Source: Pichia kudriavzevii
Lineage: Eukaryota > Ascomycota > Pichiomycetes > Pichiales > Pichiaceae
Assembly (NCBI RefSeq): GCF_003054445.1
Contig: NC_042509.1
Coordinates: 372,001-436,000 of the forward strand
DNA length: 64,000 nt
Direction of reading: 5' to 3'
Position numbers and translations under genes: made by a program
The notes under the pieces: model-generated
The model's database searches: none
What the model saw: only the letters and a program-made list of their open reading frames with translations
What the model was told of the DNA's origin: nothing
In this document: piece by piece, positions 1 to 30,737 of the stretch
How the letters are laid out: every line of letters begins with the position of its first letter
Position numbering within the stretch: the stretch's first letter is position 1

Positions 1-1488
1 TTCTAGAGTATAACCTAACGATACTCCACACGCATCGGTATGTAGAACAAATTTACAATTGCCTGACCAACTTGGGTGCACCAAGGTGGGACTTGATATC
101 AAAGCGTTCTTTAGTTGGTTGAAGGCTTCGTCTTGTTCACTTGTCCATTTAATTTGTTTTGTCATGAACTTATGAATTGGATTGGCAATTTTGGAATGCC
201 CTTTAATAAACCTTCTATAGTACGAAGTTAAACCAATAAAACTTTGTGCTTCTTTGATCGTGTTTGGCGTTGGCCAACTCTTTACCTTTTTTATTTTCTC
301 TAGAGCGGTTTGAATACAAATTGGTGTAACAACTTGTCCTAAAAACTTAAATTCTTGATAAAAAAATCTGCATTTCGACTTCTTCGTAATTAGTTTATGT
401 TTTCTTAGTGTCAACAAAACTTCTTTCACGTGCTTACCGTGAGTTTCAACATCTTCGGAGTATATAAAAATGTCGTCTAAATAGACTTGGACAAATCGAT
501 CTATTCTTTCAGGCAAGACAGTATCCATCATCTGTTGAAAAGTCGCAGGTGCGCTTGTTAGTCCAGCCGGCATTACCATCCATTCATAATGGCCAAAATC
601 AGTAGAAAATGCCGTTTTCTCCACGTCTTCATCAGCAATTCTCACTTGGTAGTAACCAGGCGTCAACTCTAACTTAGAATAGACTTTTGCCTTACCAAAT
701 CTTGAAATCAATTGATCAATATCTGGAAGTGGAAACTTGTTCCTAGCAGTATTATTGTTTAGAATCCTATAATCAACACACATACGCATAGTACCATCTT
801 TCTTCTTAACAAATAGCACTGGACTGTTAAAAGGTTTGGAACTAGTTTTGATGAAACCTTGTTTGATTAAAACTTCAACTTGTTTTGTTAGTTCCAGTTT
901 CTCAGAGAAGCTTAATTGGTATTGTTTTTTTCAAAGAGAACTCATTAGGGTAATACAAGGCAACATATGCCCGCATCTTTTCTTTGGCGGTAGTTCAGTT
1001 GATGGATCTCAAGTAAACTTTTCAAGTGTTTCCTTTTTCAATCCTCTTGCATGATTTGCGTCTAGGGGTCGATATTTAAATCAGCTTTGGCTTTATCGAT
1101 ATCAGGACTTACTAAATACCCTAAAGTTAGATCACTAAATTGCCTCTTGATAAATGGGTTTCCCAACATGAATAGCGCATGCTCAGTATCAAACATTTAA
1201 AATGACCTAACCTCACTTATACTGATAGTTTCTTTGACTACCTCAAAAGGGACAATTACGTCTGCGATAGCAACACCAGAGTTTCCGATAATCTTTACTG
1301 TTATTGATCCATCGAGCTTGGCCTTTTGCTAAACACATGAACTTCCTCAACAGTTTTATTAATAACTGTAAAAGTGGTTCTGGAGCAACCAAAATGTCAT
1401 CTGCATATTTGATATAAACGACACCACAAATTAATTTTGGTTTTTCTTTTTTGGGATGGTCATAATGTGAGTGTGGGATGGCATCCAC
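1..1488 (-). mobile_element. Ty3/gypsy-type pol fossil, left-arm copy (partial)
   Basis: Read on the minus strand, this holds a gypsy-type reverse transcriptase segment (VDYR, GYYQV and YLDD motifs) preceded by sequence like the retropepsin region. It is the inverted twin of 26351-27838. The element is broken and its distal half lies beyond the window. No LTR is visible here. Its near-identity to the right copy reflects homogenisation of the arms, not the element's age. Confidence 0.85.
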
Positions 1489-4400
1489 TCATTTTTCGGA
1501 CATTTATACTTACTATGAAAGTTCCTTTTCGTATTTCGCATCATTATCATGCCCTTTAACATCCTCTTATAAATACTATTTGAATAAAGGAACATGAAAT
1601 TATCCATGATACATTAGGTTGCCGATGGCTGAAAAGGCATGAAATAAATTGAGTTCTTTGGCGGACTTTGTTCTATAAGGGAAACCATTTAAATCATTGT
1701 ATAAGTGCCCATGTAGCTTCTTGCATGTCTATATCTCCAATAGACTCGCCCCAACATGGTTAAAACACACATCAAGCTTTTATGTTAGACTGCAACAATC
1801 TCACCCCCATTAACTGCTCAATATCGGTAAGGCCATCAAGGAATAGTGGTCAACTCTTAATGTCAGAAATAGCGACGTATATAGACACTTTAAAGTTTTC
1901 TTTATAGCCTCTCATCGATTGACCTGGTTTCAATCGACACAATTACTTGACAATATTCACCACAGAGTCTCTGTCTTTGTCGACAGGAACAAAGCGTTTC
2001 AGAATCTATCTTCAAATTTAGACCAACTAAAATCCAGTATTTGCTAGTTCATATGCATTTGAGAAGTGTGTAATTTACGTTCGTTATTTTTCAAACCTGC
2101 AACAGCCCTTATAACTTTTCTGACATCTGGTAGCCCATATGTAGCAAATTCTCTTCCAATGTCTGCTGACCATTCTATGCCTCTAGCCCTTATATCCAGT
2201 AATGGAAATCCGGGGCCTTTCTAGTCTGGAATTAATCAGAGAAGTTGGGTGGTTTTGTATAATTTTATTCTGCATTGAACATAGTTGAGTTTTGTTCTCG
2301 TTTTATCGATTTAGCTTTGATAAATCAGCTAGTTGTTCTTATCCCATTGCAATCATATAAGGCAATAAGATAAACTGTTTTACCATTGTCCAAAATGCAA
2401 ATATTCAATATAGTTTAGTTTCTAAAAGCAGCCAATAAATACATGTCAAGCAAATACAATACTGCCTTGATGTGCCCTAATTCTACTTCAGATAACCATG
2501 TTACACGTTATAGATTGAACGTTTAAAAGAGTTACTTCAAAATACCACATAAAAAGAACCCAAGGAAAAGAAAATAATCTACAACCTTTATTGATATCAT
2601 GTGATACAGCAGGTATGTCGACACACATTATGCACTGATGGCAACTAGCTAATGACAACTAGTAATATGTTTTGTGTTTAGTTAGAGATGATATCATTAT
2701 TTATTGTGGCGCCAAACCGACAATTGATAAGAGAGGTAACTCCGCTCTTACTGTAGCTTTTAATACGCATATTATTTAGAAATCCCTTAGTAATCAAGTG
2801 TCGAACTAAATATGGATATCGTACCATCAATAGCTGATTGATCGGACCTAGTCATCCATATTGCTCTCCAAGAGTTATATATTAGTGTATAAATTAACTA
2901 CTGTGGCTGAAAATTACAACTTTCAAATACACAACCAACGTTGCAGGTTTGTTGTGATAAAAAGTGTAACTTGATGTGGGGTTGCACTGTATAGTTTTGA
3001 TGTTATACTGCCATTAATTGGGATATAAAATGTTTACCACCACCAACATGTGTCATCTGATAAACCACAGACACAGCAACAAATCTGGCACTTGAAGGTT
3101 TGTTGTAAAGCTTTTGTTGCTAAAATTGGAGAGGTATTTTTCCCTGATAAGGAGAATTCAGACCGTCTTTTTGGAAGTATCTTGAAAACCTTGTGGATAC
3201 TTATTTCGAACGCCCACCACTTGGACGGAGAAAGGATAATGACTTCTTGCGATTTTACAATTTTGCTGATAAATTAAAGGCCTTTCATGGTAGCTTTTGT
3301 GGGAACGGCTCTACGGAAAAGTTCTTGAGACATCCAGGTTTGACAAAAAGATAAAGTCTACTAAAATCTATTTACAGGCCCCAATTGATTAAAAAGGTGA
3401 AAATATAGGTTTTACAAAGCTCTTCTGTAAATGTATTGTTTCGGATTACAATACATTTTTAGCAAGCACGGAAATTCCCTTTTGTTACAATATACAGGAG
3501 TGTTCGTTAAGGAAAGGTTTTGACGTGGATGGAATGATGCACCTGTAACATATCGGTGGAAACACAAGAAACCATATGGGCCTTTTACCAGACTAAGAGC
3601 ATCTTTTAAATATTCAGTTTATAGACATGGTGCATCTTTCAGAGTGACAGAACATCTTTGGGGGAGTTACTCACGTATATTATTCTATAGATTTTAGGAT
3701 TTCAAGGATCCACTGTGAGCTAATAGGATTGGTAGTGGGCTTGTGCTACAAATTTGCTCAGTTTTGCTCGATGTCGCCAACCTTAAAAACATTAATGTGT
3801 TTTTAAGGATTAACGCAGTTCCGTGCTCCGTTATGATGGAAAGGTTAAAGGGAAAGTAACCTATAGTTTTGGTTTGTATCAGCCATGTTCTAGCTCGGAA
3901 GTCAACGAACAAGCTGTTTGGAAAAATCTAGCATTGTTTTTGATTTCTTCATCAATGTGATTATTAGGCCCGAATCGTTTACGGCCGTAGTTATTAAGAC
4001 ATATTATACTAGAAAGATAAAAGGATATCCCATTATGCATATATTGTTAACTCGAACGGAAGAGATCAAATCAACCATTTGAGTGTTTACAAAGACAATG
4101 GCAAAACAACAGCACTCCTCTTAAGAACACGATGTGGCACCTTCGCTTAACCTTTTGGAAAGTAAAGGTAGTGTTTGTAGTAAAAAAAGAAGGGAAGAAG
4201 ATATTGAGATTGTGTTATATCCGGATATTGTGAACAAAGTCACACAGTCCGCCCAAATTCATGGTTTAATTGTAGAGCTTATCCAGTCAGTATGTTTCTG
4301 GAATTGATGCTGTATTCAATGTGACAACATGCCAATATTTCAAATCTATGACAGATGTATATATGAATGACATAAACGAAAAAATCCATTGTTGAGTATG

Positions 4401-4779
4401 GTTATTTCTGCAAAATAAATCAGCAGGTAATTATGGTATTTGTATTACGAAATTAAGTGAACTGCTCAAGAAATCTTTCTAAGATGAGCTTTTGCCACAA
4501 TAGCGTTACATTTTTTAGATGGTTTTGAAACTTCACACAAAAGTCTTGCAAGACAATTTTGACCTAATAGAGTTGCTGCTGTAAAGTTTCTACGGCACAA
4601 AACTATCAACCTTGAAAAAAATCTCGATTGTGTTGGTGTTGACACATTGACAAGGTTTAGGTGAGAAAGAAATATTATGAAGTGTAAACCGCAGCAAACA
4701 GTTTTGTCTCTCCATCATACACCCCATATTTGATAATGTTTTACTTGTCAATGATCGGAATATATTTGACAGTATCTAT
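1..4779. repeat. Left arm of the large inverted repeat
   Basis: Bases 1-4779 are the reverse complement of 23060-27838. Position p pairs with 27839-p with no length change over the arm, and I saw only occasional single-base differences where I compared the two. Similarity fades at about 4755-4780. The arm begins inside a gypsy-type pol remnant on the minus strand and ends inside other decayed retroelement-like sequence. It is cut by the window edge, so its full length is unknown. No intact host gene lies in it. Confidence 0.95.
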
Positions 4780-7700
4780 TGTGTGTGGAACAAAAAAGGG
4801 AAAACTAGATATGCGCCTTTTGACATCTACGAAAAGAAAAGTCCACCGTGAAAAGCTTTGGAAATATAAAACATAAATTGGGTGAACCATCTCCAAAGCT
4901 GTTTCTTTATTATTCGTTTAGAAGTGTTAGAAGTCTGGTACTTTTGGCATAAAACCAGTTAGGAAATATATAGGAAAGAATGGACGTAACATTAAAAATG
5001 TATCAGGAAAAATTTTTTACTTGCTCGTGGATTATTTATGACTCACAGCTTAGTTTTCCATTTCCCCGATAATACTCCCAGAGGGTGAATTGCTATAAAA
5101 AAGTAACATTCGCATAGTATTTGCCACTGTGCTACATGCACTTTTCTCATTATATTACTTTTTTTACATTACTAGTTTTATATGAAGTGTACAGGACTAC
5201 TTGCATTATCTAAAAGCAGGTATTATTAAAGCATGTTCTTATCTGGGTTTTGTTACCAGATTCAAGTCGTTATAACAACTCATGAAGCTTACACTGATAT
5301 ATTTATTAGTGAACAATGGAAAGATACAACCATATAACGATATCGAGAAATTCAAGTTGTTATTAGTTGATTTATACAAACCACTAGAAAAAAGTGTCAT
5401 TTCCAATTAATAACTGCATCGCGACAGAAAACTTAGTTAAAGACTATATCAATCATATAGAAAGATAATGAAAAAAAATTCAAAAAAATTCCTCCACACA
5501 AAGCAACGGAACTTGTAGCTGGTAAAACAATAAAGCTGCTGTTATACGGTGCCATTGAATGTGTAAACACAAGTGGGTATTTATTTTAAAATGATAGTAG
5601 TGTCCAGAAGGTCATCATAGATATCATTGAAAAGGTCAGGACAACTCCGACTTTCTGTAAACTGTCAATAAGTTTCTAGACCTTCACTTTTTAAATGGGG
5701 ATAAGAGAAAATGCATATAGACAAACAAACAAATACCTTGTGAGAAGAAAACAGCTATAGTATACCTACTAGAAGTGCTTGATTGTAAGGCCGAATATAC
5801 ATATCCATCCGAAATAGCATTTGGATCATTAATAATCATTTATTTAGACAATAAAGGATCTAATAAAATCCGCCATAAATGTGTCAGAGGCTAGTATCTA
5901 AGAATTAGTATGTAAATATCTGACAGACTTATCAAGTGGAACTCACTGCAAGACTTTAACTTATTCAACGAAATTGGGGACTTAATCAAATTTGGAACGA
6001 TATTGTATACTCCCCATTAATTACTCTTGGCTGGATTGTATATGGATCGGTGGAAGACCGGATTTTATATAATGGCATTATGAGCTATAGTTCCTTGGAA
6101 AAAAACGAGTTTAAGGATGAAAATAAAGATATTATAGTCAATTTCGTTGTAGTAATTAATAAAAAAGGTCAAAGTGTCCAAGGATGTGTTCAAGGAGTGT
6201 TCAACCAGATATAACAGTCTCACGCAGAACCCAATCAGGAAAATACGCTTTGAAATGGAAAGCATCGCAAACAAAAAAGCCTGATTTTCTTGTGAATGAT
6301 TTCACAAAAAGTCCAAACATATCTTGCTTAATAACTAGCTTTTGTCAAAAAAAACTGATCTTCTAAGGTAGAAATCCATCAATTATGGATGAAACACGGA
6401 ACTCATTTGTTGAAAAACGCACTAGAAACAAGCAACTGTAATTAACGTTTATGTGAAATCTTAGATACACAAGTGCCTAACGGCTGAGAAGGCCACAGTT
6501 ATGTTTTCCGATAGTTGAAAAGTGCTATTCATAAGCTGTCAAAACAAAATCATGAGACACATCTAACAAATACAATTATACAAATTCAGAAGTTATATAA
6601 TACAATCCATCTAAGACCTCGTTACTACATTGTGGTAATGGATTAATTGATGGAGCTATATGGCAAAATCAAAAAGTTAGAACTAACAAAGGAAGGGGAT
6701 AGACAAACAATGTAACTGACTATTGTAAATAATGATAGTAACAGTTCACAGTCTAAAAATCAGAGGGAAAAACTTTGTAAGAAGAAGAAAATAAGTATAT
6801 TACTATTATTATCTCAAGCTTTTATATGTCAAAAACGAATGCGATGTTTTGAGGAGGAATATTTATAGACCTGGCAAGCATCTGATTCGTAAAATTATTT
6901 CGCAAGACCAAACTGAATGTACTGTACAATGAATCATTATTAAGATGTCCGAAATGAGTTAGCTGAAACTAAGGAATTACCAGATGACTCAGTGGACAAA
7001 CAAGGTATTGAAGAAATAATACCGGTGTCGGAATATGACGAACCAAAAAAATGATCAACCCAATTTAAACCATTTACGGCACACGGCTTAAGACAGAGGC
7101 AAACAAAAAAGGCAGCATTTAACCAAGAGAGCATAATGGCCGATGCCGAGACTAATGACATTCCTTTTTTTTCAAAGACAAATAACAAATAAAATTTTCT
7201 GGGAAAGTCAAATCTGTATAAACACAATGCACCTGGTACTATTTTATCTATTTATCAATTGCCTGTATCTCAAGTCTCGAGAAGAGACGAAAACCAACAT
7301 TGGGGTTACTTTATGGAAAGACATTATAGGAGTCTATGCGCGCATAATAACTGAGAACCAAAATCACCAAAGTCTAATATAAAAATTTCGCAAAAGGAAA
7401 GTAAAAACGATGTAAGCGCCGACTAAGAAATACACCATTCCCAAAGGTCAAAAACAACACTGGTAACAAAATATTTGCACAATAGAGAAAGTTGTTGCAT
7501 GTGTCGAATATTTTTTATGGATTAACAATAATGGTTAAGATAGTGTATGATGAGATGATCAAAGAAAAAAACAAGTTTCCCACAGACTCAACGATATTTT
7601 TTGATTTGAAATTAGGAAACCATATACTATAATCCAATTACCGAAATTTTCATGAGTAAGCTACTATCCTTGTTAAGTGTTATTAGACCAGACATTAAAT

Positions 7701-8600
7701 ACGCTGCAAGATATTTTGCAAACTGTACTTTCACGTCTGAAAATGTATTAAGATAATGCATGCAAGTACTCAGATATTTCATTGCAACAAAACATTAAAG
7801 TTTTGTTTGACAATGAAAACAAATATGAAGAGTTAATTTCATTCTCTAACTCGGGCAACTCTACTAGTAATTCGAAATCTATACCGATCAAAAGAGCGTG
7901 CTTATGTTTGTTAAAGGACTTATAATGTGAAGATCAGCAAAAAAAACTAATTAGTAGTCACACAACTTTATCATTATAAATCAGTATTTAGCTGAAGAAG
8001 ACTGTGAAATTAAAAAAAAACGAAACAGCAGTTAATTTAGCTAAAGTACACAAAATACATATCACTGTCAATACTCAGAATTTTTCAAGAAATGGATACC
8101 TGAACTATGGATAATAATTCACAACGTCATGATCAAGGAGTAGTGTGTAAAGAGTAATAATAGAAGCACGAACTCATATTGTAAGGAAACATCTTAATGG
8201 TAAAAAAAATGGAGGCTGAAACCTTGTCATTTTATATGGAGACTATTCATACTACATGAGGAAAACCAGGTACTTATATATCTAGGCCCCCTATATATAG
8301 AGAAAGAATGGTGAAGACATAATATTTACTGCGAGTGATGTGAGGCTGGTTGATAGTGAAATCATTAAGGAAAATACCAGGAAGTATTTTAAATAACTCG
8401 ATTGAAGAACTTGCCTGTAGTTCTCTCCTTGGAGTCAATAAAAGTACTGCCCAAGGGAACATCAGCAAGAAGATATCTAGTAAGGTATTTGTGTACGATT
8501 ACGTGAGAGACCGAAGAATCCATACAAGTTTGAAGTATGGCTTCCTAAATTTTCTATCTGGGTCTATTTCTAATTATAGGTGAGTTGGTTTTGCTCAAGT
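3000..8600 (+). mobile_element. Decayed Ty1/copia-like element
   Basis: The plus strand carries scattered coding-like pieces. The clearest is at about 7685-7730, an RPDI-type motif followed by a YAxRYF-like stretch. Such a motif marks the border between reverse transcriptase and RNase H in Ty1/copia elements, and weaker RNase H-like sequence follows to about 8.1 kb. Upstream pieces (3.0-6.3 kb) may be gag, protease and integrase remnants, but I cannot confirm them. The element is heavily broken, with many breaks, and looks old. No LTRs were found. The left-arm boundary at 4779 falls within the stretch, so a corresponding part (3.0-4.8 kb) recurs inverted at 23.1-24.8 kb. Confidence 0.5.
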
Positions 8601-9797
8601 GGCACATGTATGAGTGTCCTTGTAATTATGAATTCACTTATTACTTTTATTCTTCTCCGCTTTGAATCAGTTATATAATAAAGCCTAGTTTTACCTCTTT
8701 AAAAATGCAAAGTAACCAAAAAAAAGGTGCTAGCTATATCACATGTTATTTTCACCGTTTTCTTTGGTATACCCACAGTTTTAGATAATTTATTTTAAGC
8801 AAAAATAAATGAATAGTTTAATTGATATCACACTTTGTTAGAAGTAAAAGTTTAGACAGAGGTATTTTAACTCATGATACTCGATGAAGTTCATTATAGA
8901 ACCGCATTTGTAAGCTTCGAGATTTGGTTCAAATTATAAAAAAAATCGAAAGAAATACCTCATTACCCAAATCTGGAACAGCATGCATTGATAGGGCCGG
9001 AAATTTATTTATTAAGTTACATGTTAGAAAAAAGTGAACAGTCAGAACTTAGTTCAATACGCGGTAAATATGTTAAATAAATTTTACTTGGTTTGCATTT
9101 TTTCACTTTTCAGTATCTCAATAACTATCCCTTATTATCAATGAAAATCTATCTAGTTATTTTGTTTAAGTTGGATAAAAATCTACGGAAAGACATTACT
9201 ACTTGAAGGTATCTATTGATAGATCAATTATTTGTTTTAAGAACTATAGAATTAAAAACAAGGCAGTAATGGTAGATTTTAAAGATTATTTAGAGTAGAT
9301 AGATAGTAAAGGCTGTACTGAATATAAATGTGGATTTGCAGAACCAATAAGTGACCTGTAATCAAGCTACTTAAGTAATTCTAATGGTATTTTACCACAG
9401 GAAAGCTAATCCTTTTCCCAATGACGGTTCATATGATCCAAGTTTTAAATGTTTTGTATCATCATATCATAATAGGGGTATTTGAAAGGCATAGATCGAC
9501 GAAAGTGATAAAAATTACTTATTAAACGACGTATTTACATCCACGTTTTTGCTGGAAGTACTGAATCTGCCTACTGCTAGTTTGGGGAAGACAATAATAC
9601 ACAAAATAAAGACAATGATGAAGATTCCAGTTTTTTTTAAAGATAAAAAAATAGATATATATGTATAATTGTATGAATAGTTTTAATAATAACTTATGTT
9701 GCTATTTTGATAGCAATTCATTTTACTATTGAAAAGGTTACCCAGGCAAATAATATGTTTAGCACATCAGATTCTGTACTAATAGTAATATAGAGTT
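8601..9797. other. AT-rich stretch with no intact gene
   Basis: No open frame of useful length and no RNA gene are visible. Short coding-like pieces around 9.25-9.65 kb lie just upstream of the first direct-repeat copy and may be remnants of the same unknown gene or element. I cannot name the source. Confidence 0.5.
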
Positions 9798-10563
9798 ATG
9801 CTATAACGTCAGGCAATACTTATGTGTATAGCGAAATAGTAAATGGCAGATTGTAAACCGTATGTTTTCACTACTCAGACTCATACGACATGTCTAGAAG
9901 CCCAAGCAATGAATTAGAGGACTGTTTGGTATCAACATCCAGTCACCTTGGGTGTAATAAAACTTATTTAAAGAGATAGTAGAAGATATAATCAAAGATC
10001 ATGCACAAAATATAAATGTATAAGTGAAGGTAATGTATTGACACATTTTGCTTCGGGCACGTGCGCATTAACAGATTTTGTATAAGGTTGCTAATTATAG
10101 TACCTGGTGAAGAAGCATTATTCAGAAAGGTTGTGGCCCAACTAGATGTTGAAGTGGACCTTCTACTTTCCTTAAATACAATAGAAGCAAAATAGATGCT
10201 TTACCTATCACAAACACGATGAGTATTTTCTCGTTTTGCTTTAGTCAAATAGAGCTAATTAGAAAATCCTTCGATATTTGATGCCTTGGCTGGAACCAAC
10301 TCAAAAACATCTTCTTGGAATATATTTTTCTAGTAATATCGGGAAAATAAGAAACAGTTACCCAGAAATAAATGGGATTAATAAACAACCGTAACATTTT
10401 TTATCTTTTCATGCGATTTACTCGAGCTCTACATTTTCTATTACCTCAAGAACTAAATTTGTGTAGCATTTATTTGACGTATAATTTTTATTTAGCTCAT
10501 CACTAAAGAATACTTGTTATTAAGAGATTCTACCATTAATAAAGTACGCAAATCTAGCTTTTC
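9798..10563 (+). repeat. Direct repeat, copy 1 (about 766 bp)
   Basis: This stretch matches 17481-18244 in the same orientation, at roughly 95 percent identity by eye. The shared sequence opens with ATGCTATAA and ends near AAGTACGCAAAT. It includes coding-like stretches on the plus strand, for example around 10110-10200, interrupted by stops. The flanks differ between copies. The family is unknown, and it does not match the LTRs in this window. Confidence 0.85.
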
Positions 10564-11189
10564 TGAAGTCTTGTTAACTTTTAATCTCATAAATGCATAA
10601 ATAACATATCAGATGTATCGTATTTAAATAAATATAATGCACATGATTTAGGAAAAAAAAAAACCATTTGTCCTCAAACAAAAGAGTAGATCAGACATAA
10701 AAAATTGAAGAGATTTCATTCTTTTTAAGATATCTGTTTTTGGTTCAATAATTGACTAATCTATCAAGTAAATTAAGTAAGAGTGTTTATATAATCCTCT
10801 TATAAACTGTTGCTGTGATGTCAGTCTGACTAATTCTATCATCTGTGATTAATATCTGCTTAGCATCACTGAATTAATTTATATTATTAGTTGTTATCAT
10901 CTATTGTTCATCAGACATTTGTTTTTTTAATGTAAGCTAATACACTTATGATGTGAGTAAGTGACGTGCAACAGTTACGTCCAAGATATTGCTATGAATA
11001 TAAAGCCCTTTTCAGTTCAATATTTTTTTACACATTATCAAAACTATTTGATCAACAGATTGACAGCCAATTCCGAAGATGAAGTTTTAATATTAAACTT
11101 TTGAAAGCAAAAATCCCACAACTAAGAGTGTTCTTTGCCAAATAATAGTTCAAGCGTAGCCCATGGCAAAAACATTGGAATTAAAAAAT
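10564..11189. other. Intergenic spacer-region DNA
   Basis: AT-rich DNA between the direct repeat and the tRNA pair. I see no gene. A T-run on the minus strand (11182-11188) just past tRNA-Asp is a plausible Pol III terminator. Confidence 0.5.
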
Positions 11190-11261
11190 CTCCGAGACCG
11201 GGAATTGAACCCGGGTCTCCCGCGTGACAAGCGGAAATTCTAGCCACTAAACTATCTCGGA
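11190..11261 (-). tRNA. tRNA-Asp(GUC)
   Basis: A 72-nt cloverleaf. The acceptor stem TCCGAGA/TCTCGGA pairs fully, with G as discriminator. The anticodon loop reads GTC, and the T-arm carries GGTTCAATTCC. It lies downstream of tRNA-Gly with only four bases between them. A minus-strand T-run at 11182-11188 can end transcription. It sits inside the inverted-repeat spacer. Confidence 0.95.
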
Positions 11262-11265
11262 CAAC

Positions 11266-11336
11266 TGCGCAAGCCCGGAATCGAACCAGGGGCTCAACGA
11301 TGGCAACGTTGAATTTTACCACTAAACCACTTGCGC
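11266..11336 (-). tRNA. tRNA-Gly(GCC)
   Basis: A 71-nt cloverleaf. The acceptor GCGCAAG/CTTGCGC is perfect, the discriminator is A, the anticodon is GCC and the T-arm has GGTTCGATTCC. No T-run separates it from tRNA-Asp four bases downstream, so the two are probably co-transcribed. The 3' end of a Ty3-type LTR sits one base upstream of its 5' end. Confidence 0.95.
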
Positions 11337-11337
11337 T

Positions 11338-11605
11338 TGTTGAGTTCTGAAAGTGTTGCTGGTGGTGGGTACTTTAGAATCTGATTATTGCTTATTTATA
11401 TCTTATATATTTTTATACGTTAATTCTCTGAGAACATATAGGGAATATCCTCTGTTTAGATAGCAATTTTTAATTTACAAATAGCATTTTGAGGAATTTA
11501 ATTATCTTCTAGAACTTCTGTTTAACCTTCTATAATCTTCTTCAACCTTCTATATTATTACCCGATTAGGAAATAGAGAGATAGTCCTTTGTCTGATCTT
11601 TTACA
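11338..11605 (-). repeat. Ty3-type LTR (3' LTR of the minus-strand element)
   Basis: A 268-bp LTR running TGTAAAAGATC...ACTCAACA on the minus strand, with TG/CA ends. It closely matches the solo LTR at 30738-31007 and the fragment at 52555-52636. It contains a TATA-rich stretch. It directly follows the gypsy pol at 11.6-14.2 kb, so it is that element's 3' LTR. It abuts the 5' end of tRNA-Gly. Confidence 0.85.
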
Positions 11606-14600: not shown

Positions 14601-15115
14601 TGTCATCAACTAAAGCAACAGAATACCTAAACAGTCTCTCTTTCAAAATCTCTTCTATTGCGAGACAGAGTTTTCTTAATAAAATCAAAATCCTTAGTTT
14701 TGCTTCTCTATCTGAATTCTGGGGGCGAAACCACCTTTAAGCGTTTAGCAAAATGAAACCATAAAAGTAGTCTTAAATTGAAAATACTTTATTTGTTAGT
14801 ATACCAAGTAAGGACCGATTCAACAAGGACTAATACCTCCATCTCCAAACTAGGAAAAGTACGTGACTTGCTTTCTAATCCATTTCTGTGTGTAGCTTAA
14901 AATTGGTAACCAATCTATTAACAAATGTTATGACAAGCGCCTATATTTTTTTGTTACATTTGAAAAACATTTTTAAGTCTAGTAGGAATAAGTTGGAACC
15001 TGCGTTCATCGCTTTCACTTCGAAAATCTCTTTATTGGTCTCTTGGACCCTAAAACCTCCGATACTAGCAGTTGTAAGTGTTATTGGCAGAATTTCGACT
15101 AGACATTACTTATAG
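11606..15115 (-). mobile_element. Broken Ty3/gypsy retrotransposon in the spacer
   Basis: On the minus strand this has, in order, a probable protease or upstream region (about 15.1-14.2 kb, weak), a reverse transcriptase (13189-14178, motifs VDYR, GYFQV and YLDD), an integrase with an HHCC zinc finger and catalytic core (12384-13172), and an integrase C-terminus with a GPY/F motif (11836-12330). The 3' LTR follows at 11338-11605; no 5' LTR was seen. The element is broken, with about four or more breaks, but the protein motifs remain easy to recognise, so it is younger than the copia-like remnant. The inverted-repeat axis falls inside its reverse transcriptase. Confidence 0.85.
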
Positions 15116-17480
15116 CGTTTTTTGTTTTATGTCATTTATTTATTGATTATACTGCTTATACACTTTATATATTATAATTTATTCAATATAATTAATTCAA
15201 ACTACATATGTGAATTTTGAATACCTTAGACTGAAGTTCAAAATCAAAGACTGATGTGAGCTTGCAACCCGAAAAAGCAAACTTTCACTGATTGATCATC
15301 CATGGGCTGCAACTGAAAGGCACGTAGATTTGTTTTTCTCTAAGGACAGTACATGCTAGGTTTGTGGGAAATGAGGAAAGCTTTGTGTACGCCAACTTAC
15401 ACGCAGGAGGAGAAATTTGGAAAATACCCTATATAGTTTATAAACAATAAGTTCTTTGTTCCATCTAGCAAAACCTAGACCAGTCGAGATAATACACATA
15501 TACATAAGTCATTTTCCATGATGTTATTTCATCAGAGGTAATTATTACATTCTAAAATTAATGCCAACGACATAGTGATTTAAAAGTGAGAGGTTTTTTC
15601 AGGCGTTGAACTTTAAGTTTGAGTATTTTTTCAAAACTTTTTTTTGAAAAAACCCTTCTAGGGATAGTGCAGTTTTAAGTCGGGTTTACAAGAAGCATTT
15701 AAACTAGTTGATGAATATTTGAATATTACTGTCAGTGTTTCTGCACGATGCTAAATGTTATTCTCAAAGTACTTTGGAAGCTCATACTTAATTTTGCAAA
15801 AGGACTTTTTAGAATTATCTAACTTCATATAATATGAAACTCAGCGCTCAAATTCTACCATTCGGCATTTGAAACCGGTGAACCACTTTTTCCTTGATTG
15901 TTGTACAAAAAAAACAGATATTGACTTCTGCGAAATTACCGAGGAGCATCTGTTTCTTTTTCGATCTCGTTTACACTAAAATCAATGGCTTATAAAGTGT
16001 ACATATAGTTATAGTTTATTAAATTGGGTCTGTGTAAAAACATAAAAAAACATGTTCAAAATGATAGAGCTTACATCGAAGCAAGGTTAAGTGATTTACG
16101 CATAAGGCAAAAGAGAGAATACCGCTGGTCTATGTCTCTGTTATTTGTTTTGGTTAGTGTTTGGTAGAGGAAACCTTCTTAAAGTCGCCTGGAAATATAA
16201 CTTAACTTTTTTACTAAACAGCACCCAATTGAAAAAAAAAGACCTCCATGAGCTGGTGATTAAATCACGTAAGAGTAATCCATTTTTGATTTTATAAGAA
16301 GTTAAATGCTGGCCTCTAGAGACGCTTTATGGACGGAAATAGCCCGAAAATAATTATTTCAAGCATGAATATACTATCAGTTCCGCCTTAGACGTTTATT
16401 GAAAAGGAGCTTTTATTATACAAATATGTACGCGTTGACAACTCTTTCTTTTTCCTTCTGTTAAGAATAATATAAACGGTTATTTCCTTTTATTCTAAAG
16501 AACAAAAGGAAGCTCCTCAAAACAAAGCTGAAGGTTTACGCATCATTTCGAGTATATTTGTCAGGGCTTTGAAGCCGGGCGCTATAATCAACAATTTCAT
16601 ATTTTGGGATTACAATATATAACAGCAATTTATTAAGAAAGCTATGAGGAAAAAATCGATTTGTTGAAGACTTCATAGCTATCTATAGTTTCTATCAAGT
16701 ATTTGGCAATATAAAAATGGATGATAGTAAATGTAGACTTCGGATAATTACTTATAGTTAAACGAAATTCAAAGGGGATTTTAACAAATCCCAAAGCTTT
16801 AGGACAATTTTGGCTGGCCTAAAGTTTCACTACTGAAATACAGTAGAGATAAGTGGCGCTACGATAATAACAAGTTCCCCTTCTAGTCATTCAAAACATT
16901 ATGTTTACAAAAATGAAGAGAGTAAAGCTAACAGTGAAAAGCTGCTCAAAAAATATTGCAGACCGGGTTAATTTGCAAAGTTTCGAATATTGCAAAAACT
17001 TCTCGTTATTTTTCCAGGTTTTGTATTACGCATAAAAGGAAAATTAAAAAAGATAGCTTCGGGTTTTGTAAACAGAGTCAAGAGACGGTCTGCTTCCTAG
17101 TTTGAAAACTTTGCAAATGTACAGTACGATATAAAGGGCAAAAGCTATGTATATTGAACAATTTCAATAATAGTAATTCTTTGAACTAGGTCTCCTCGTT
17201 TGAAATTAGTGTACTTCATTTAACCAAGAACAGTAACAAATTTCTGCAGCCTCCTGAAAAGCAGCGGCTAAAGAGTTCTTGCTCCTGATGCTTTAAAAAT
17301 GGAACTGTTTGTGCAAAGAAAAAGATTTGTCAATAATGGAAAAAAAAAATTTAATGAAAAGTAGCACTTTGGATATTTACTACTTGTTTGATCCCGTTGT
17401 TGGCCAAACTCTTAGAAAATCACATTACTTTGAAATAAAAATTATTAATACAAAAGATTCCATAATATTTACTTCGACAT
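15116..17480. other. AT-rich spacer with no recognisable gene
   Basis: No long open frame, RNA gene or known repeat is visible. The only notable open stretch is 17309-17539 (plus strand, 76 codons from a GTG-type or internal start), which runs into the direct repeat and looks like a relic. Confidence 0.5.
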
Positions 17481-18244
17481 ATGCTATAATGTCAGGCAAT
17501 ACCTATGTGTATAGCGAAATAGTAAAGGGCGGGTTGTAAATCGTATGTTTTCACTACTCAGACTCATACGACATGTCTAGAAGCCCAAGCAATGAATTAG
17601 AGGACTGTTTGATACGAATATTCAGTCACCTTGGGTGTAACAAAACTATTTAAAGAGATACTAGAAGATATAACCAAATATCATGCACAAAATATAAATG
17701 TATAAGTGAAGGTAATGTATTGACACATTTTGTTTCGGGCACGTGCGCATTAACAGATTCCGTATAAGGTTGATAATTATAGTACCTGGTGAAGAAGCAT
17801 TATTCAGAAAGGTTGTAGCCCAACTAGATGTTGAAGTGGACCTTCTAATTTCCTTAAATACAATAGAAGCAAAATAGGTGTTTCACCTATCACAAACACG
17901 ATGAGTATTTTCTTGTTTTGCTTTAGTCAAATAGAGCTAATTAGAAAATCCTTCGATATTTGATGCCTTGGCTGGAACCAACTCAAAAACATCTTTCTGG
18001 ATTATATTTTTCTAGTAATATTAGGAAAATAAGAAACAGTTACCCAGAAATAGATGGGATTAATAAACAACCGTAACATTTTTTATCTTTTCATGCGATT
18101 TTCTCGAGCTTTACATTTTCTATTCTCTCAAGAGCCAAGTTTGTGTAGCATTTGCTTGGCCTATAATTTTTATTTAGCTCAACGCTAAAGAATACTTGTT
18201 ATTGAAAAATACCACCAGTAATAAAGTACGCAAATATAGCTTCT
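17481..18244 (+). repeat. Direct repeat, copy 2 (about 764 bp)
   Basis: Second copy of the 9798-10563 repeat, in the same orientation. The open stretch 17309-17539 overlaps its start, and its last residues (a YAIMSGNTYVYSE-like string) are shared with copy 1. The two copies lie at similar distances on either side of the inverted-repeat axis, yet they are direct, not inverted. Confidence 0.85.
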
Positions 18245-21200
18245 CTAAATATTCATGAGTATCCATCTTGTAAAGGCCTCTGTAAAGCAATAACCTTATA
18301 TTTCGCTAAATCCAGTAGTCAAAAAATAGATAGCAAGCTTGAGCAAGATTCTTTTCATTAGCTTCATTATGATTATATAAATATATTGCGCCAGGAAGAA
18401 CTTGGAGATTTAACTAATGTCGAGAGTACAATGAGGTATAATAAATTTTCATGTTTAATATATCTGATAGCGAGCATATTTACATGGGAAGCCACTCAAA
18501 CTAATTCCGTCAATTTTTTTACAAATCTAATTTATTATTCCAATCATTAAGTCAAGATAAAAAAAACCCTGAAAAAAGTATAGATTCTTAGCTACTTTAC
18601 CATTCAGGCAAACAAACTCATTCTCCATAAATATGTCTAAGAGTACTCTTGAGAAAAATTCTTCTTTTATATTATAACACGATTAAATTTCCTGAGCAAA
18701 AACAAAAATGAATCAGACTCTCCCAGAAAAATAGTGAATGCAATTTTTGTTTTATTAGTAAGAGGATTAAGAATATCCTTATAAAGCTATCTCTGAGTCG
18801 ATAAATCTATCTATGGCCTAATTTCAATTTACTAAATGAGTTTAGGAATGTCACTATATACAGAAAACTGAAAAAATAACTTCAAGTATATTTACAAATT
18901 CTGTTCATTGAGAACCAAATAGTGAGAATTATGCAATATCCTTTTTAATGGATTTATAAGTTATTCAATATCAACAATAAATAAACAACATTGATATATA
19001 TGTAAATAAAACGGTAGAACCTAAAAAATAATTTATATAATGGAAAACTTCCAGCGAAGTATGATGATATTCAGAATATATGCGGATAACTGTCGAATAA
19101 GCACATTAATAGTAATGATATACATGTAAAAGGTCTTGGGAGACAAATTAATCAATTTTATGATAGTAAAACAAATTTCTTTGCAAACAGCGCGAACAAA
19201 ATAAGAAATGATATTTTATATAAAAAATACTAGATGAGTTGACATTGGAGAACAGTGGTTAAGGAATAGCGTTATGCCACAATGTAGATATTTATAGTAG
19301 CTGTAAATTCTATAAAAACTGGTGTTCAAGAGGCACAATTCCTGACGTGATGCCCATATTTAGTCCAGCAGCTGGATAACTTAAAAAGAATCCACAAATT
19401 ATATAGATCGATATCAATAGATTCAGTTGGAGTTGAACTGGTTTCTTATTAATCTTTGTTTTGGTGCCATGATGACTGAGGGTGTCTTCCATAACTAATG
19501 CTGATATAAATTTTAATCGTTATTTCTGTCCTTAACTCAGAACATAGGTCTAAATATAGCTGTCAAACAATCAGAAATAAATACTGATCCTGAAATTGGC
19601 CTATTGTTAACTATCTACAGTGTTGAATCTGATAACGAAACTATGCCGGATCAATCATGAAAGATGTTCAAGCGTTAAAAAGAATCGTACTCTTTTTGGT
19701 TTAAACGCACCTGTACTATAGTTTGCTTTGAATAAAACCATCGCCAGTTACCCAACTTTAAGTGAGCACTATTTCTGAAAGTGACATCACATCTTAGTAC
19801 CTAATCTTACTCTCTAGGTAATTGTAAAAATTACCCTCAGCACTGTTTCGACATAGCACTCTTTAGTGAAAATTTGCAACGTGATCTAAACATGAAAATC
19901 CGAGAAATTGCCGGATACTCATAAGGTGCAAACTTTTCTTGCTGGTCGATAGATCACTTCGTAATGTTCCATTTGCACCTATTGATTGATTTTTCGTTGA
20001 CGTCAACTTCTTATATATGAGCCCTTACAGAAATGATTTTATGGATGCACGATATTCCTGTTTAAAACAGCCGGCGTTTACTATCCTATAACAAGAGGCT
20101 TACATGACTCCCACATGAAATATAAACTAAGCGAACCACGAATTCGACTTTGCCGCAAAACGTTTTCTGAAACATACTGTTTAAATAAGTTCAGGAAAAG
20201 GCATAACAGTCATACATAATTGTCTGTATAGAGTTTTGACATTTATTATAACTCTCTAAGAAAATGTTTGGTAGATTAGACTGTGGAGAGAAAGAAAAAA
20301 GAAGAGTGTCTATAAAAACTATAGCTTGACAAATATTTTGATAAAGTTTAGAAAGAAGCACATGTTTTTTTCTGATTTATTCCTACAGAATGGATCAATG
20401 AAACCTTTTGGGTGTTTTTTTTAGAAATTATCAAGATTAAATTATTGCATTACAAAAATTGTATGTTTTTGATTTGAGTTTCGTGCGGCAAAAGATTGGA
20501 AATGGAAGCTATCCAATATTACAAATAATATTGTCGTAGAAATGTTTTCTTTAGGGATATCAAAAGTTTGTTAGACGGCTATTACTCTTCTGTTTTCAAC
20601 CCGTACATATTTTAAACTGGGAAAATGCAGGATCTTAGAGAGTTCTAGTTTTACAAAGTACTGTGTCTATGGAAGATTCATCCAATACACACAGTAAAAT
20701 TAAGTTTGAAAATTTGAGTAGTAAAGACGTACTTCCAGATTATTACGTTCTTCTTAGACATATAATTAAATACTTGGTCTCGAAATTCAGATTCTCCAGT
20801 AGAAAAGTCCAACAAAAAATTATAAAGGACGTACGTTTCCAGTCGGACCAAACTAGCTGAAAAGCCAATAGTTTCACGATGTAGCTAAATTTTAAGTAGC
20901 TGTTTGAAAAAGCTACTTGTTTTTATGTACAAAAAGGTTGTATGTGTTAGTTGAATAGTGTTTCTTTTTTTTTTTGCAATTTCAAGATCAGCGACTTTAA
21001 ATATTGGTCATTGTGACATGAAAAAAAAACAGTTACCTTTGAGAACTAAATGACTCTTTTCTTGCTAGACCTTATCGATCTATCTTTTAGCTCATCACAA
21101 ATATTAGGCGAAAAAGAATACACTAATCTAAGAAAGCTATTTATATATTATTTTTTTGATGGAAAAAAAAACTCCAATGTGTGGGATAATGTTGAAATTA

Positions 21201-23059
21201 GCGTTATGTTTATTAGGCATGGTGAGTCAGCCCTGATAGAGGGACCATTGAACTGAGAGTACAAACAAGTTGGTGATTAGAACCTATTATTTAAGCATCC
21301 TTTAGACAGTGCTGTTTTAACGGGGGTCTCATATATTTAAATCATGTACTATAAGAGGAATAGTCACACACGGATTTCTTTTGATGAAAATGCTCAAGGA
21401 CGGCTAGGTAACAAACAAATAAATGAAAAGAAAAAAACTGGAACATAAGGGACAGCAATCACATAGTCCAAAGCTGAATCCAGAAAAGGCTGCAGAGACT
21501 CCGTCATTTGATGCAAAGCATAAGGGTAAACGGTTAGACGTTGCTGAAGTTAGTAGAAACGTATACTAAGAAAATCCAACACATGGAATTCAAGCAGCTG
21601 CTAAGGGTAGAGTCATGTGAGTGAATAACAGCTTAATTCAGTAGAATGCAACAAAAGGATTTATGTATTACATTGCTAATGATTGTTCCACAATAACAGG
21701 CAGCATGCTTTTGATAATTAAGAGGCTAGTCCTCTGCGGATAACTAGAGCTCTTCTGAATTATCAGAGTATTGTTGTGTTATTGGTCCATATAGCTTTTG
21801 CAAGATTGTTAGGCCGACCTTTAAGAGCACAAGTTTTTTTTTTCTATAAGAGTTTAATGTATTTTGCATATGTATAAGGGCGTGCAACTTACCATTTGCT
21901 CTGAGAGCAAAAAAACAATAATTTATAAGGTTTATTTTTTGTTTATACTAAGTTTTTTGTTAAAATCTAGCCAACTTCCCAGCTAACATTGTCGATTATG
22001 ATCTAGTTTAGTTTATGTAAGTCAATGTACTAGGGTCTTTTTCAGGTCAATGTTGAATTTCTCAACATAAACATAACACTACGTTTCTTCTTTAACTCTC
22101 AACAATTCTAAGTCCCCTAATGGCAAGAAAAACTTGACCATACATAATCTTAAGCTGCTTACAGAACAACCCTACAATGATGCTCCAAGTGGTAAAAAAG
22201 TAACTTCTAAACGGTAAACATTCGGGCAATGAGATTTAGGCTAACTTTAGGATTAACATAATAGATTCTCTTCTCATCTTAACCAACTTATAAACACTTC
22301 TGCACGAATAAAATTCACGCAAACGCGTTATCTGTACTTGTAGAGCTTATATAACAGCATATAACATGAGAATAGTTGCAGAATTTTATAGTTCTATACG
22401 GTTCATCAAATCCTATATACCCTACTCTCCCTGAGCATAAAGCATGGACACATGATATATTGCAGACGAATGACACATGCTGATGCATCTTAAAATGCTC
22501 CAGGAGTGATTTCCAAAGTTCAAGAATCCTTAGAATGTTGTACTATAAACCGCCATATAGTTATAGAAAAAGTATATTCAAGCAATGCTGCTTAACAATG
22601 ACTAATATAAACACAGTCCAATTTCCATTGATTTGGAACTATAGTTTTTGGTTCCAACAATATAATTTCAAATAAATCTCTGCTTCCAATACCAGTAACT
22701 CTTTTCTCTTGAGTGTTTTGACTTTTCAATGGATGGATGTTGGTGGCCGCCTTTGATCTCAACAAATGCTCATACCCAATACCTTTTACTTCGTTTTTGA
22801 GCACATCTATAATCCCGTGTTCTGTATAGTATAGTGTCAGTCGTCTGAGATAAATATCCGTCTTTTTTAATTGGTCTGATCAATCTCAGCATTTCCAGTG
22901 GTTTCTTCCATTTCTTCCATCTCTTGAATTTAAGTAATTTAAAGTAAGGTTTTTACATTAAAAACTGGTTCGATATCAGCCCTTAACGATATAGGTAACA
23001 TACTATCAAAGCTTAGATTAATTGTACTTTCTTTTTCATCTCGCCTTATACAAGACATA
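18245..23059. other. AT-rich spacer with no recognisable gene
   Basis: Only short open stretches are present (for example 20663-20860, 21050-21256 and 22592-22804). None carries a motif I recognise, and none is longer than about 70 codons. The segment 22.6-23.06 kb next to the right arm has coding-like composition on the minus strand and may be decayed retroelement sequence. Confidence 0.5.
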
Positions 23060-26000
23060 ATCGATACTGTCAAATATATCCCGATTATTGACAAGTAAAA
23101 CATTATCAAATATGGGGTGTATGATGGAGAGACAAAACTGTTTGCTGCGGTTTACACTTCATAATATTTCTTTCTCACCTAAACCTTGTCAATGTGTCAA
23201 CACCAACACAATCGAGATTTTTTTCAAGGTTGATAGTTTTGTGCCGTAGAAACTTTACAGCAGCAACTCTATTAGGTCAAAATTGTCTTGCAAGACTTTT
23301 GTGTGAAGTTTCAAAACCATCTAAAAAATGTAACGCTATTGTGGCAAAAGCTCATCTTAGAAAGATTTCTTGAGCAGTTCACTTAATTTCGTAATACAAA
23401 TACCATAATTACCTGCTGATTTATTTTGCAGAAATAACCATACTCAACAATGGATTTTTTCGTTTATGTCATTCATATATACATCTGTCATAGATTTGAA
23501 ATATTGGCATGTTGTCACATTGAATACAGCATCAATTCCAGAAACATACTGACTGGATAAGCTCTACAATTAAACCATGAATTTGGGCGGACTGTGTGAC
23601 TTTGTTCACAATATCCGGATATAACACAATCTCAATATCTTCTTCCCTTCTTTTTTTACTACAAACACTACCTTTACTTTCCAAAAGGTTAAGCGAAGGT
23701 GCCACATCGTGTTCTTAAGAGGAGTGCTGTTGTTTTGCCATTGTCTTTGTAAACACTCAAATGGTTGATTTGATCTCTTCCGTTCGAGTTAACAATATAT
23801 GCATAATGGGATATCCTTTTATCTTTCTAGTATAATATGTCTTAATAACTACGGCCGTAAACGATTCGGGCCTAATAATCACATTGATGAAGAAATCAAA
23901 AACAATGCTAGATTTTTCCAAACAGCTTGTTCGTTGACTTCCGAGCTAGAACATGGCTGATACAAACCAAAACTATAGGTTACTTTCCCTTTAACCTTTC
24001 CATCATAACGGAGCACGGAACTGCGTTAATCCTTAAAAACACATTAATGTTTTTAAGGTTGGCGACATCGAGCAAAACTGAGCAAATTTGTAGCACAAGC
24101 CCACTACCAATCCTATTAGCTCACAGTGGATCCTTGAAATCCTAAAATCTATAGAATAATATACGTGAGTAACTCCCCCAAAGATGTTCTGTCACTCTGA
24201 AAGATGCACCGTGTCTATAAACTGAATATTTAAAAGATGCTCTTAGTCTGGTAAAAGGCCCATATGGTTTCTTGTGTTTCCACCGATATGTTACAGGTGC
24301 ATCATTCCATCCACGTCAAAACCTTTCCTTAACGAACACTCCTGTATATTGTAACAAAAGGGAATTTCCGTGCTTGCTAAAAATGTATTGTAATCCGAAA
24401 CAATACATTTACAGAAGAGCTTTGTAAAACCTATATTTTCACCTTTTTAATCAATTGGGGCCTGTAAATAGATTTTAGTAGACTTTATCTTTTTGTCAAA
24501 CCTGGATGTCTCAAGAACTTTTCCGTAGAGCCGTTCCCACAAAAGCTACCATGAAAGGCCTTTAATTTATCAGCAAAATTGTAAAATCGCAAGAAGTCAT
24601 TATCCTTTCTCCGTCCAAGTGGTGGGCGTTCGAAATAAGTATCCACAAGGTTTTCAAGATACTTCCAAAAAGACGGTCTGAATTCTCCTTATCAGGGAAA
24701 AATACCTCTCCAATTTTAGCAACAAAAGCTTTACAACAAACCTTCAAGTGCCAGATTTGTTGCTGTGTCTGTGGTTTATCAGATGACACATGTTGGTGGT
24801 GGTAAACATTTTATATCCCAATTAATGGCAGTATAACATCAAAACTATACAGTGCAACCCCACATCAAGTTACACTTTTTATCACAACAAACCTGCAACG
24901 TTGGTTGTGTATTTGAAAGTTGTAATTTTCAGCCACAGTAGTTAATTTATACACTAATATATAACTCTTGGAGAGCAATATGGATGACTAGGTCCGATCA
25001 ATCAGCTATTGATGGTACGATATCCATATTTAGTTCGACACTTGATTACTAAGGGATTTCTAAATAATATGCGTATTAAAAGCTACAGTAAGAGCGGAGT
25101 TACCTCTCTTATCAATTGTCGGTTTGGCGCCACAATAAATAATGATATCATCTCTAACTAAACACAAAACATATTACTAGTTGTCATTAGCTAGTTGCCA
25201 TCAGTGCATAATGTGTGTCGACATACCTGCTGTATCACATGATATCAATAAAGGTTGTAGATTATTTTCTTTTCCTTGGGTTCTTTTTATGTGGTATTTT
25301 GAAGTAGCTCTTTTAAACGTTCAATCTATAACGTGTAACATGGTTATCTGAAGTAGAATTAGGGCACATCAAGGCAGTATTGTATTTGCTTGACATGTAT
25401 TTATTGGCTGCTTTTAGAAACTAAACTATATTGAATATTTGCATTTTGGACAATGGTAAAACAGTTTATCTTATTGCCTTATATGATTGCAATGGGATAA
25501 GAACAACTAGCTGATTTATCAAAGCTAAATCGATAAAACGAGAACAAAACTCAACTATGTTCAATGCAGAATAAAATTATACAAAACCACCCAACTTCTC
25601 TGATTAATTCCAGACTAGAAAGGCCCCGGATTTCCATTACTGGATATAAGGGCTAGAGGCATAGAATGGTCAGCAGACATTGGAAGAGAATTTGCTACAT
25701 ATGGGCTACCAGATGTCAGAAAAGTTATAAGGGCTGTTGCAGGTTTGAAAAATAACGAACGTAAATTACACACTTCTCAAATGCATATGAACTAGCAAAT
25801 ACTGGATTTTAGTTGGTCTAAATTTGAAGATAGATTCTGAAACGCTTTGTTCCTGTCGACAAAGACAGAGACTCTGTGGTGAATATTGTCAAGTAATTGT
25901 GTCGATTGAAACCAGGTCAATCGATGAGAGGCTATAAAGAAAACTTTAAAGTGTCTATATACGTCGCTATTTCTGACATTAAGAGTTGACCACTATTCCT

Positions 26001-27838
26001 TGATGGCCTTACCGATATTGAGCAGTTAATGGGGGTGAGATTGTTGCAGTCTAACATAAAAGCTTGATGTGTGTTTTAACCATGTTGGGGCGAGTCTATT
26101 GGAGATATAGACATGCAAGAAGCTACATGGGCACTTATACAATGATTTAAATGGTTTCCCTTATAGAACAAAGTCCGCCAAAGAACTCAATTTATTTCAT
26201 GCCTTTTCAGCCATCGGCAACCTAATGTATCATGGATAATTTCATGTTCCTTTATTCAAATAGTATTTATAAGAGGATGTTAAAGGGCATGATAATGATG
26301 CGAAATACGAAAAGGAACTTTCATAGTAAGTATAAATGTCCGAAAAATGAGTGGATGCCATCCCACACTCACATTATGACCATCCCAAAAAAGAAAAACC
26401 AAAATTAATTTGTGGTGTCGTTTATATCAAATATGCAGATGACATTTTGGTTGCTCCAGAACCACTTTTACAGTTATTAATAAAACTGTTGAGGAAGTTC
26501 ATGTGTTTAGCAAAAGGCCAAGCTCGATGGATCAATAACAGTAAAGATTATCGGAAACTCTGGTGTTGCTATCGCAGACGTAATTGTCCCTTTTGAGGTA
26601 GTCAAAGAAACTATCAGTATAAGTGAGGTTAGGTCATTTTAAATGTTTGATACTGAGCATGCGCTATTCATGTTGGGAAACCCATTTATCAAGAGGCAAT
26701 TTAGTGATCTAACTTTAGGGTATTTAGTAAGTCCTGATATCGATAAAGCCAAAGCTGATTTAAATATCGACCCCTAGACGCAAATCATGCAAGAGGATTG
26801 AAAAAGGAAACACTTGAAAAGTTTACTTGAGATCCATCAACTGAACTACCGCCAAAGAAAAGATGCGGGCATATGTTGCCTTGTATTACCCTAATGAGTT
26901 CTCTTTGAAAAAAACAATACCAATTAAGCTTCTCTGAGAAACTGGAACTAACAAAACAAGTTGAAGTTTTAATCAAACAAGGTTTCATCAAAACTAGTTC
27001 CAAACCTTTTAACAGTCCAGTGCTATTTGTTAAGAAGAAAGATGGTACTATGCGTATGTGTGTTGATTATAGGATTCTAAACAATAATACTGCTAGGAAC
27101 AAGTTTCCACTTCCAGATATTGATCAATTGATTTCAAGATTTGGTAAGGCAAAAGTCTATTCTAAGTTAGAGTTGACGCCTGGTTACTACCAAGTGAGAA
27201 TTGCTGATGAAGACGTGGAGAAAACGGCATTTTCTACTGATTTTGGCCATTATGAATGGATGGTAATGCCGGCTGGACTAACAAGCGCACCTGCGACTTT
27301 TCAACAGATGATGGATACTGTCTTGCCTGAAAGAATAGATCGATTTGTCCAAGTCTATTTAGACGACATTTTTATATACTCCGAAGATGTTGAAACTCAC
27401 GGTAAGCACGTGAAAGAAGTTTTGTTGACACTAAGAAAACATAAACTAATTACGAAGAAGTCGAAATGCAGATTTTTTTATCAAGAATTTAAGTTTTTAG
27501 GACAAGTTGTTACACCAATTTGTATTCAAACCGCTCTAGAGAAAATAAAAAAGGTAAAGAGTTGGCCAACGCCAAACACGATCAAAGAAGCACAAAGTTT
27601 TATTGGTTTAACTTCGTACTATAGAAGGTTTATTAAAGGGCATTCCAAAATTGCCAATCCAATTCATAAGTTCATGACAAAACAAATTAAATGGACAAGT
27701 GAACAAGACGAAGCCTTCAACCAACTAAAGAACGCTTTGATATCAAGTCCCACCTTGGTGCACCCAAGTTGGTCAGGCAATTGTAAATTTGTTCTACATA
27801 CCGATGCGTGTGGAGTATCGTTAGGTTATACTCTAGAA
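23060..27838. repeat. Right arm of the large inverted repeat
   Basis: This is the mirror of bases 1-4779, with the same content in opposite orientation. The matching sequence stops at 27838 only because the window starts there. On this side the gypsy pol sequence simply continues to about 29.7 kb, so the real arm may be longer. The axis of symmetry is near 13,920. Confidence 0.95.
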
Positions 27839-29742: not shown

Positions 29743-30116
29743 ATATCAACAAAGTAATCATAATTATAATACATAGAACGTTCCTATTTGTCCCTCAGCT
29801 GAAGAAAAAAAATACAGATATTGCTCCTACCAAAACATAGAACATATTGTTTTTTGATTGAAATAAGTTAGCCACTCTCGATTTAAAGAAATACAAATTG
29901 AACTCATAAAAAAATTATTGTTACTGCCAGGATCCACCTACATTTATTATTCTAATCTGGTTTAATGTTTTGCAGCTTCATTGGTTCAGTGCCCCCATCC
30001 GGGATTATCCAGTTATTTTGTTGCACCGTTTTGAGGAACATCGGGGCGATGTTTCCCAAGAGCCGGGGTAGTGAAAGGGATTTTTCAGGATGTGTTCCAA
30101 AAAAGGAAGTGCCAGT
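29743..30116. other. Junction DNA between the gypsy fossil and the LTR-like repeat
   Basis: No gene, LTR or tRNA was recognised in this stretch. It separates the pol remnant from the dispersed repeat that starts near 30117. Confidence 0.4.
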
Positions 30117-30730: not shown

Positions 30731-30737
30731 TAAAAAC

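Follow-up and report, generated by a model that had tools for sequence, protein, structure and literature searches.

Regional centromeres organised around inverted repeats have been predicted in the yeast Pichia kudriavzevii (Candida krusei), and this text concerns one of them: a window of 64,000 nucleotides (C4:372001-436000, contig NC_042509.1 of RefSeq assembly GCF_003054445.1) from a five-contig genome (C1 to C5; 10,791,929 bp in all), in which an initial annotation made from the letters alone had proposed a candidate centromere. Strain CBS573 has five chromosomes of 2.852, 2.746, 2.542, 1.384 and 1.289 Mb, and in each of them a gene desert harbours a single inverted repeat, called the centromere, with arms of 7.9-14.5 kb, a middle of 8.0-18.3 kb and a total of 31.7-37.8 kb (Douglass et al. 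2018, PMC6053246). The same work reports that the arms of certain centromeres have sequence in common with the middles of others, and such sharing is already in print (PMC6053246, PMC7263194). It also lists six PkudTy3A elements that are intact, one on chromosome B, two on C and three on D. On its sequence, the interval at the start of the window very probably represents all but the leftmost tenth of the regional centromere on chromosome 4, in an assembly matching CBS573. This interpretation is not new, since the structure was predicted in print in 2018 (PMC6053246).

Three other yeast systems offer points of comparison. Komagataella phaffii likewise has one inverted repeat per chromosome surrounding a middle (as related in PMC6053246 and PMC7263194), but its repeat measures 2 kb around 1 kb and is unique to its chromosome, whereas here 7.9 kb surrounds 18.3 kb and the sequence is shared. 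Candida tropicalis combines an inverted repeat with sequence homogenised across chromosomes (PMC12711049), although in P. kudriavzevii the position of the shared core with respect to the arms varies from chromosome to chromosome and C3 is divergent. The Ty5-cluster centromeres of Ogataea polymorpha are, as here, rich in retroelement remains, but their elements are Ty5-like and without inverted repeats (PMC12711049), in contrast to the Ty3-type remains of the present locus.

The inverted repeat of chromosome 4

Within the window alone, two arms at 1-4793 and 23046-27838, separated by 18,252 nt, were recovered where the initial annotation had placed them. When the DNA to the left was added, blastn extended each arm to 7,945 bp (C4:368840-376784 and C4:395055-402999), so that the arm size of about 4.78 kb given earlier proved too small, the left arm being truncated by the window start. 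The inner 60% of this arm lies at 1-4784 on the forward strand, and its remaining 3,161 bp at C4:368840-372000, outside the window. The right arm is complete at 23055-30999 on the reverse strand and runs 3.16 kb beyond position 27838, where the repeat had been drawn to end; the accompanying "at least" 27.8 kb holds, as the entire locus spans 34,160 bp, of which the window covers 30,999. The arms had also been described as being in perfect register, and they are indeed ungapped, but they differ at 10 positions in 7,945 bp (99.87% identity), four of which fall in the final 32 bp at the inner end. Beyond the arms, the sequence differs between both outer sides and between both inner sides. A 7.9-kb match without gaps cannot be due to chance.

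The spacer, or central region (4785-23054), measures 18,270 bp, in agreement with the 18.3 kb first estimated. Its portrayal as gene-free and AT-rich DNA with retroelement fossils and tRNA genes was likewise borne out: no intact protein gene was found in it, its three open reading frames (ORFs) of at least 100 aa are all fragments of Ty3-type pol, with no mating-type gene among the three, and genes for tRNA-Asp (11190-11261) and tRNA-Gly (11266-11336) lie together on the reverse strand (11190-11336). GC content is 33.0% in the spacer, 35.7% in the visible part of the left arm, 35.8% in the right arm and 37.4% in the right flank. ATG-initiated ORFs with a minimum length of 150 aa take up 11% of positions 1-30999 and 8% of the spacer, as against 72% of 31000-64000, which confirms that gene-dense DNA follows the repeat. 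No tandem repeats were found within 1-31000.

Counterparts on the other chromosomes

A search of the other chromosomes for one such repeat each, as the initial annotation had suggested, found the design on all five contigs, with C3 and C5 partly read. On C1 the arms are 9,543 bp long (99.79% identity) around a spacer of 12,636 bp, for a span of 31,719 bp, and on C2 they are 12,694 bp long (99.43% identity) around 12,401 bp, for a span of 37,777 bp. The C5 arms reach at least 7,076 bp (99.87% identity) with 10,350 bp between them, and those of C3 at least 3,232 bp (99.2% identity), so that arm-to-arm identity within a chromosome is 99.2-99.9% where measured. The spans, arm sizes and spacer sizes fall within the ranges published for CBS573, the lengths of C3 (2,541,747 bp), C4 (1,383,544 bp) and C5 (1,289,138 bp) agree with the published 2.542, 1.384 and 1.289 Mb, and the six Ty3 reading frames of 1,243 aa have the same distribution by chromosome. 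As for the surroundings, the C1 locus is flanked on both sides by genes for HXT-like sugar transporters in inverted orientation, with DNA about 92% identical, and the C4 locus has another HXT-like sugar-transporter gene on its left.

Sequence confined to the five loci

The spacer contains a non-coding core of 6.9 kb (15736-22612, forward strand) whose identity to the copies in the C1, C2 and C5 loci is 97-98%. Used as a query against the genome, it gave at least 17 matches, every one inside the five inverted-repeat loci; this and the corresponding counts for the arm and for element X are lower bounds, and each includes the query's own place. The matches comprise full copies (97%) together with partial second copies on C5, C2 and C1, and additional copies of a 573-bp segment, here termed element X, while C3 has just this element at 94% and short islands at 69-78%. 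An arm query (1000-4793) behaved in the same way, with at least 10 matches, all 10 within the five loci and both C5 arms at 99%. Element X itself (17480-18052, with a second copy in the C4 spacer at 9797-10369, both on the forward strand) is found at all five inverted-repeat loci, hence on all five contigs, and all of its matches, at least 11, lie within them. A CACGTG site is present in eight of nine aligned copies of element X, yet it is equally common outside the locus. The element could be read as a solo long terminal repeat (LTR) of about 565 bp running from TG to CA, but a target-site duplication was not seen by eye at 10 copies, one of them truncated.

The core and the inverted repeat do not share their boundaries. 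The border between arm and spacer falls inside the core on C5 (query position 1727/1728), C1 (3981/3982) and C2 (2574/2575), and the C4 core is uncut; because the border thus cuts the core at different points on three chromosomes and nowhere on the fourth, the sequences indicate that the geometry of the repeat drifts while the core stays. Core identity between chromosomes (97.5-98.4%) is below the identity of arms within a chromosome, as expected if conversion from arm to arm outpaces exchange between centromeres, with the exception of the CEN4 and CEN5 arms, which are 99% alike. The published account groups centromere 1 with 2 and centromere 4 with 5 (PMC6053246), and the core described here also links all four.

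Retroelement sequences are distributed differently from the core. A query with the Ty3A LTR has 44 listed matches, scattered over the five contigs. Reverse transcriptase (RT) sequences occupy 27 places in the genome, 17 of them within the five loci, the C3 and C5 loci being delimited for this count by the long ORFs nearest to them on either side. The six frames of 1,243 aa are among these 27 places (one on C2, two on C3 and three on C4), and all six lie outside the five loci.

Evidence for and against a centromere

The centromere reading draws on the presence of the repeat on all five contigs, on the confinement of core, arm and element X matches to these loci while the Ty3A LTR is dispersed, and on the presence of a gene for CENP-A, the histone on which a kinetochore of this kind would be built. 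The gene lies at C2:528763-529275 and encodes 170 aa, with fission-yeast cnp1 as its best match among solved structures. A second candidate, at C2:2239978, was set aside, as it has an NF-Y/HAP5-like histone fold instead and C2:528763 is the better match. The centromere first proposed for this DNA is therefore supported as a prediction, and it corresponds to one of the P. kudriavzevii centromeres predicted in PMC6053246.

Point centromeres have a short, defined set of motifs (CDEI-CDEII-CDEIII) and the CBF3 complex, which includes Ndc10. The Ndc10 family (NDC10_II) has no match in the genome, and the control genomes were silent too; a CDEI-like motif is scattered both inside and outside the locus. 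A 0.8-kb centromere-like sequence for plasmids in P. kudriavzevii was reportedly identified by functional screening (Cao et al. 2020), in which case published work already offers some functional evidence for such a sequence. The S. cerevisiae CEN gave no help to a plasmid in P. kudriavzevii (PMC6595149). In a recent overview, the centromeres of three species rest on bioinformatics alone, and the 2018 P. kudriavzevii paper is among the references cited for them (PMC12711049).

Several points weigh against this interpretation or narrow its basis. Chromatin immunoprecipitation of Cse4 (the CENP-A homologue) or Hi-C for P. kudriavzevii was not found in the literature searched, most subscription journals lying outside it. 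C1 and C2 (2,842,500 and 2,735,000 bp) are about 10 kb shorter than the 2.852 and 2.746 Mb published for CBS573. Homogenisation is not universal, C3 having diverged, and confinement to the loci is not complete either: one of four matches to the query 4800-6800 lies outside them (67% identity, window 5457-6214 against C4:187723-188481), as do 10 of the 27 RT places. The C1, C2 and C4 loci were measured whole and the interiors of C3 and C5 in part, and the statement that each chromosome has a single repeat comes from PMC6053246.

If the locus is a centromere, nucleosomes containing CENP-A (Cse4) on part of the middle, the arms or both would seed the kinetochore, and their position would be inherited epigenetically, with the DNA supplying a platform poor in transcription. 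The two arms may be kept alike through gene conversion or crossing over between them, and the same exchanges, at a slower rate among centromeres that cluster together, could account for the sequence shared from one chromosome to another.

Alternative origins

The locus might instead be a graveyard of retroelements near tRNA genes, in which Ty3-type elements inserted and decayed and recombination produced the repeat, with no role at the kinetochore. Parts of the arms and spacer do consist of broken pol genes, and the right arm terminates on its outer side in a Ty3A LTR only 10 bp from a tRNA-Arg gene. Such an origin is nevertheless very improbable, as all five contigs have a locus of this kind, matches to the core and to element X are confined to these loci while the Ty3A LTR is dispersed, and the six Ty3A frames of 1,243 aa all lie elsewhere.

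The remaining explanations concern the repeat itself, and both are extremely improbable. A false head-to-head join, either of two haplotypes or within a palindromic long read, would yield near-identical arms, and isolates are mostly diploid and one quarter of them triploid (PMC6053246); however, two type strains sequenced with PacBio are collinear except for some Ty3A elements (PMC6053246), 10 sites distinguish the arms, which continue into unlike sequence on their outer and inner sides, and the same design recurs in different sizes on five contigs. An artefact of assembly is thus extremely unlikely. Much the same standing belongs to an invertible switch region that flips the spacer, as the inverted repeats at the mating-type loci of methylotrophic yeasts do. 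Recombination between long identical inverted arms can flip the sequence that they enclose, and flip-flop mating-type loci are known in related genera (PMC6692504). Against such a switch, which has hardly any probability left, the three spacer ORFs of 100 aa and above are pieces of pol with no mating-type gene among them, and the design is present on all five contigs. Flipping of the spacer could, for that matter, accompany centromere function.

Retroelement remains in and around the locus

The spacer of the predicted centromere holds a broken Ty3A-like element on the reverse strand (11345-14178), composed of an LTR (11345-11605), two integrase pieces (11836-12324 and 12384-12827) and an RT piece (13189-14178). 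A second Ty3-type lineage, with DNA about 66% identical to this element, is represented in the left arm by a piece of a pol pseudogene (1-789, reverse strand) and in the right arm by its mirror copy (27050-29236, forward strand), where RT extends over 27050-27862 and an RNase H tail with an integrase zinc domain over 27980-29236. The LTR in which the right arm terminates on its outer side is of the Ty3A type and lies at 30738-30999 on the forward strand. A fossil of copia-type RT and RNase H, suspected by eye at 7486-7922 from one short motif, is not claimed, as family searches gave no confirmation: 10 open pieces, each searched separately, matched no retroelement family (the single match, at E 0.1, was a chance hit to an unrelated family), and the copia-type RT family RVT_2 had no match at E up to 1, with the control also silent.

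Further elements lie elsewhere on C4. Directly outside the left arm, beside a tRNA-Val gene, is a Ty3A-type element flanked by two LTRs (C4:364338-368838); its RT-bearing frame has 545 aa, and it is hence not one of the six with 1,243 aa. Two Ty3A elements that do have such a frame lie in the same orientation 12 kb apart (C4:304273-304749 and C4:316401-316877). On the other side, a segment of 613 bp between tRNA-Val and tRNA-His genes (window 52636-53243) is 92% identical to the part of the arm near the outer LTR and is probably a retroelement remnant.

The right flank and the centromeres of Saccharomyces

Immediately outside the right arm, by 10 bp, lies the tRNA-Arg gene (31010-31083, forward strand), and the first protein gene is TIM21 (31219-31953, forward strand), whose product has its closest named relatives, among 39 matches, in Pichia inconspicua and Pichia californica. 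It is followed by an ORF of 222 aa with a weak phosphodiesterase match under the cut-off, and then by genes for a neutral trehalase (34927-37905, reverse), a RanBP1/YRB1-like protein (38314-39006, forward), a RER2-like cis-prenyltransferase (39362-40264, reverse) and a COQ1-like long-chain polyprenyl synthase (40586-42052, forward). In S. cerevisiae, the right arm at CEN2 begins with NTH2-RER2-COQ1 (YBR001C-YBR003W) and the right arm at CEN4 with NTH1-YRB1 (YDR001C-YDR002W), and the order and directions in the window equal these two lists interleaved.

Such a match is shown by one flank of 10, in a comparison by Pfam names rather than orthology that covered 40 proteins (nine of them without a family), a subset of the ORFs, in addition to the right flank of the window. 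The chance of one such match is put at roughly 5-10%, from a rough gene count, and the flank is weakly suggestive, and nothing beyond that, of an inherited location of CEN4. A second apparent case of synteny with S. cerevisiae, ALG6 beside CEN5, was discarded, as the structure match to ALG6 has just 100 bits and the gene is more likely ALG8, a name itself assigned tentatively. Centromere locations are largely conserved in Saccharomycetales, Saccharomycodales and Phaffomycetales, with ECM15 beside the ancestral CEN3 (Hession et al. 2025, PMC12711049). An extension of this conservation to Pichiales does not appear in the consulted parts of that paper, and NTH1, NTH2, RER2 and COQ1 are absent from its main text.

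Implications

To the published prediction, the present analysis makes a modest addition, namely the genome-wide counts for the core and element X, the moving border of the arms, the bounds of the C4 locus and the possible inherited location. It is conceivable, although on balance doubtful, that the true constant is not the inverted repeat but a shifting sequence found only at centromeres (the core on C1, C2, C4 and C5, and element X on all five). In that case the centromeres would be partly defined by sequence and copied between chromosomes, and the CEN4 site next to NTH-YRB1-RER2-COQ1 would descend, as the ancestral CEN3, from an ancestor shared with Saccharomyces.

In the literature consulted, the centromeres of P. 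kudriavzevii are published as predictions, and the present case illustrates that raw sequence can suffice to recognise a regional centromere. The core that is restricted to these loci and the possible inherited location of CEN4 are relevant to the question of what carries a yeast centromere: its sequence, the geometry of its repeats or its position.

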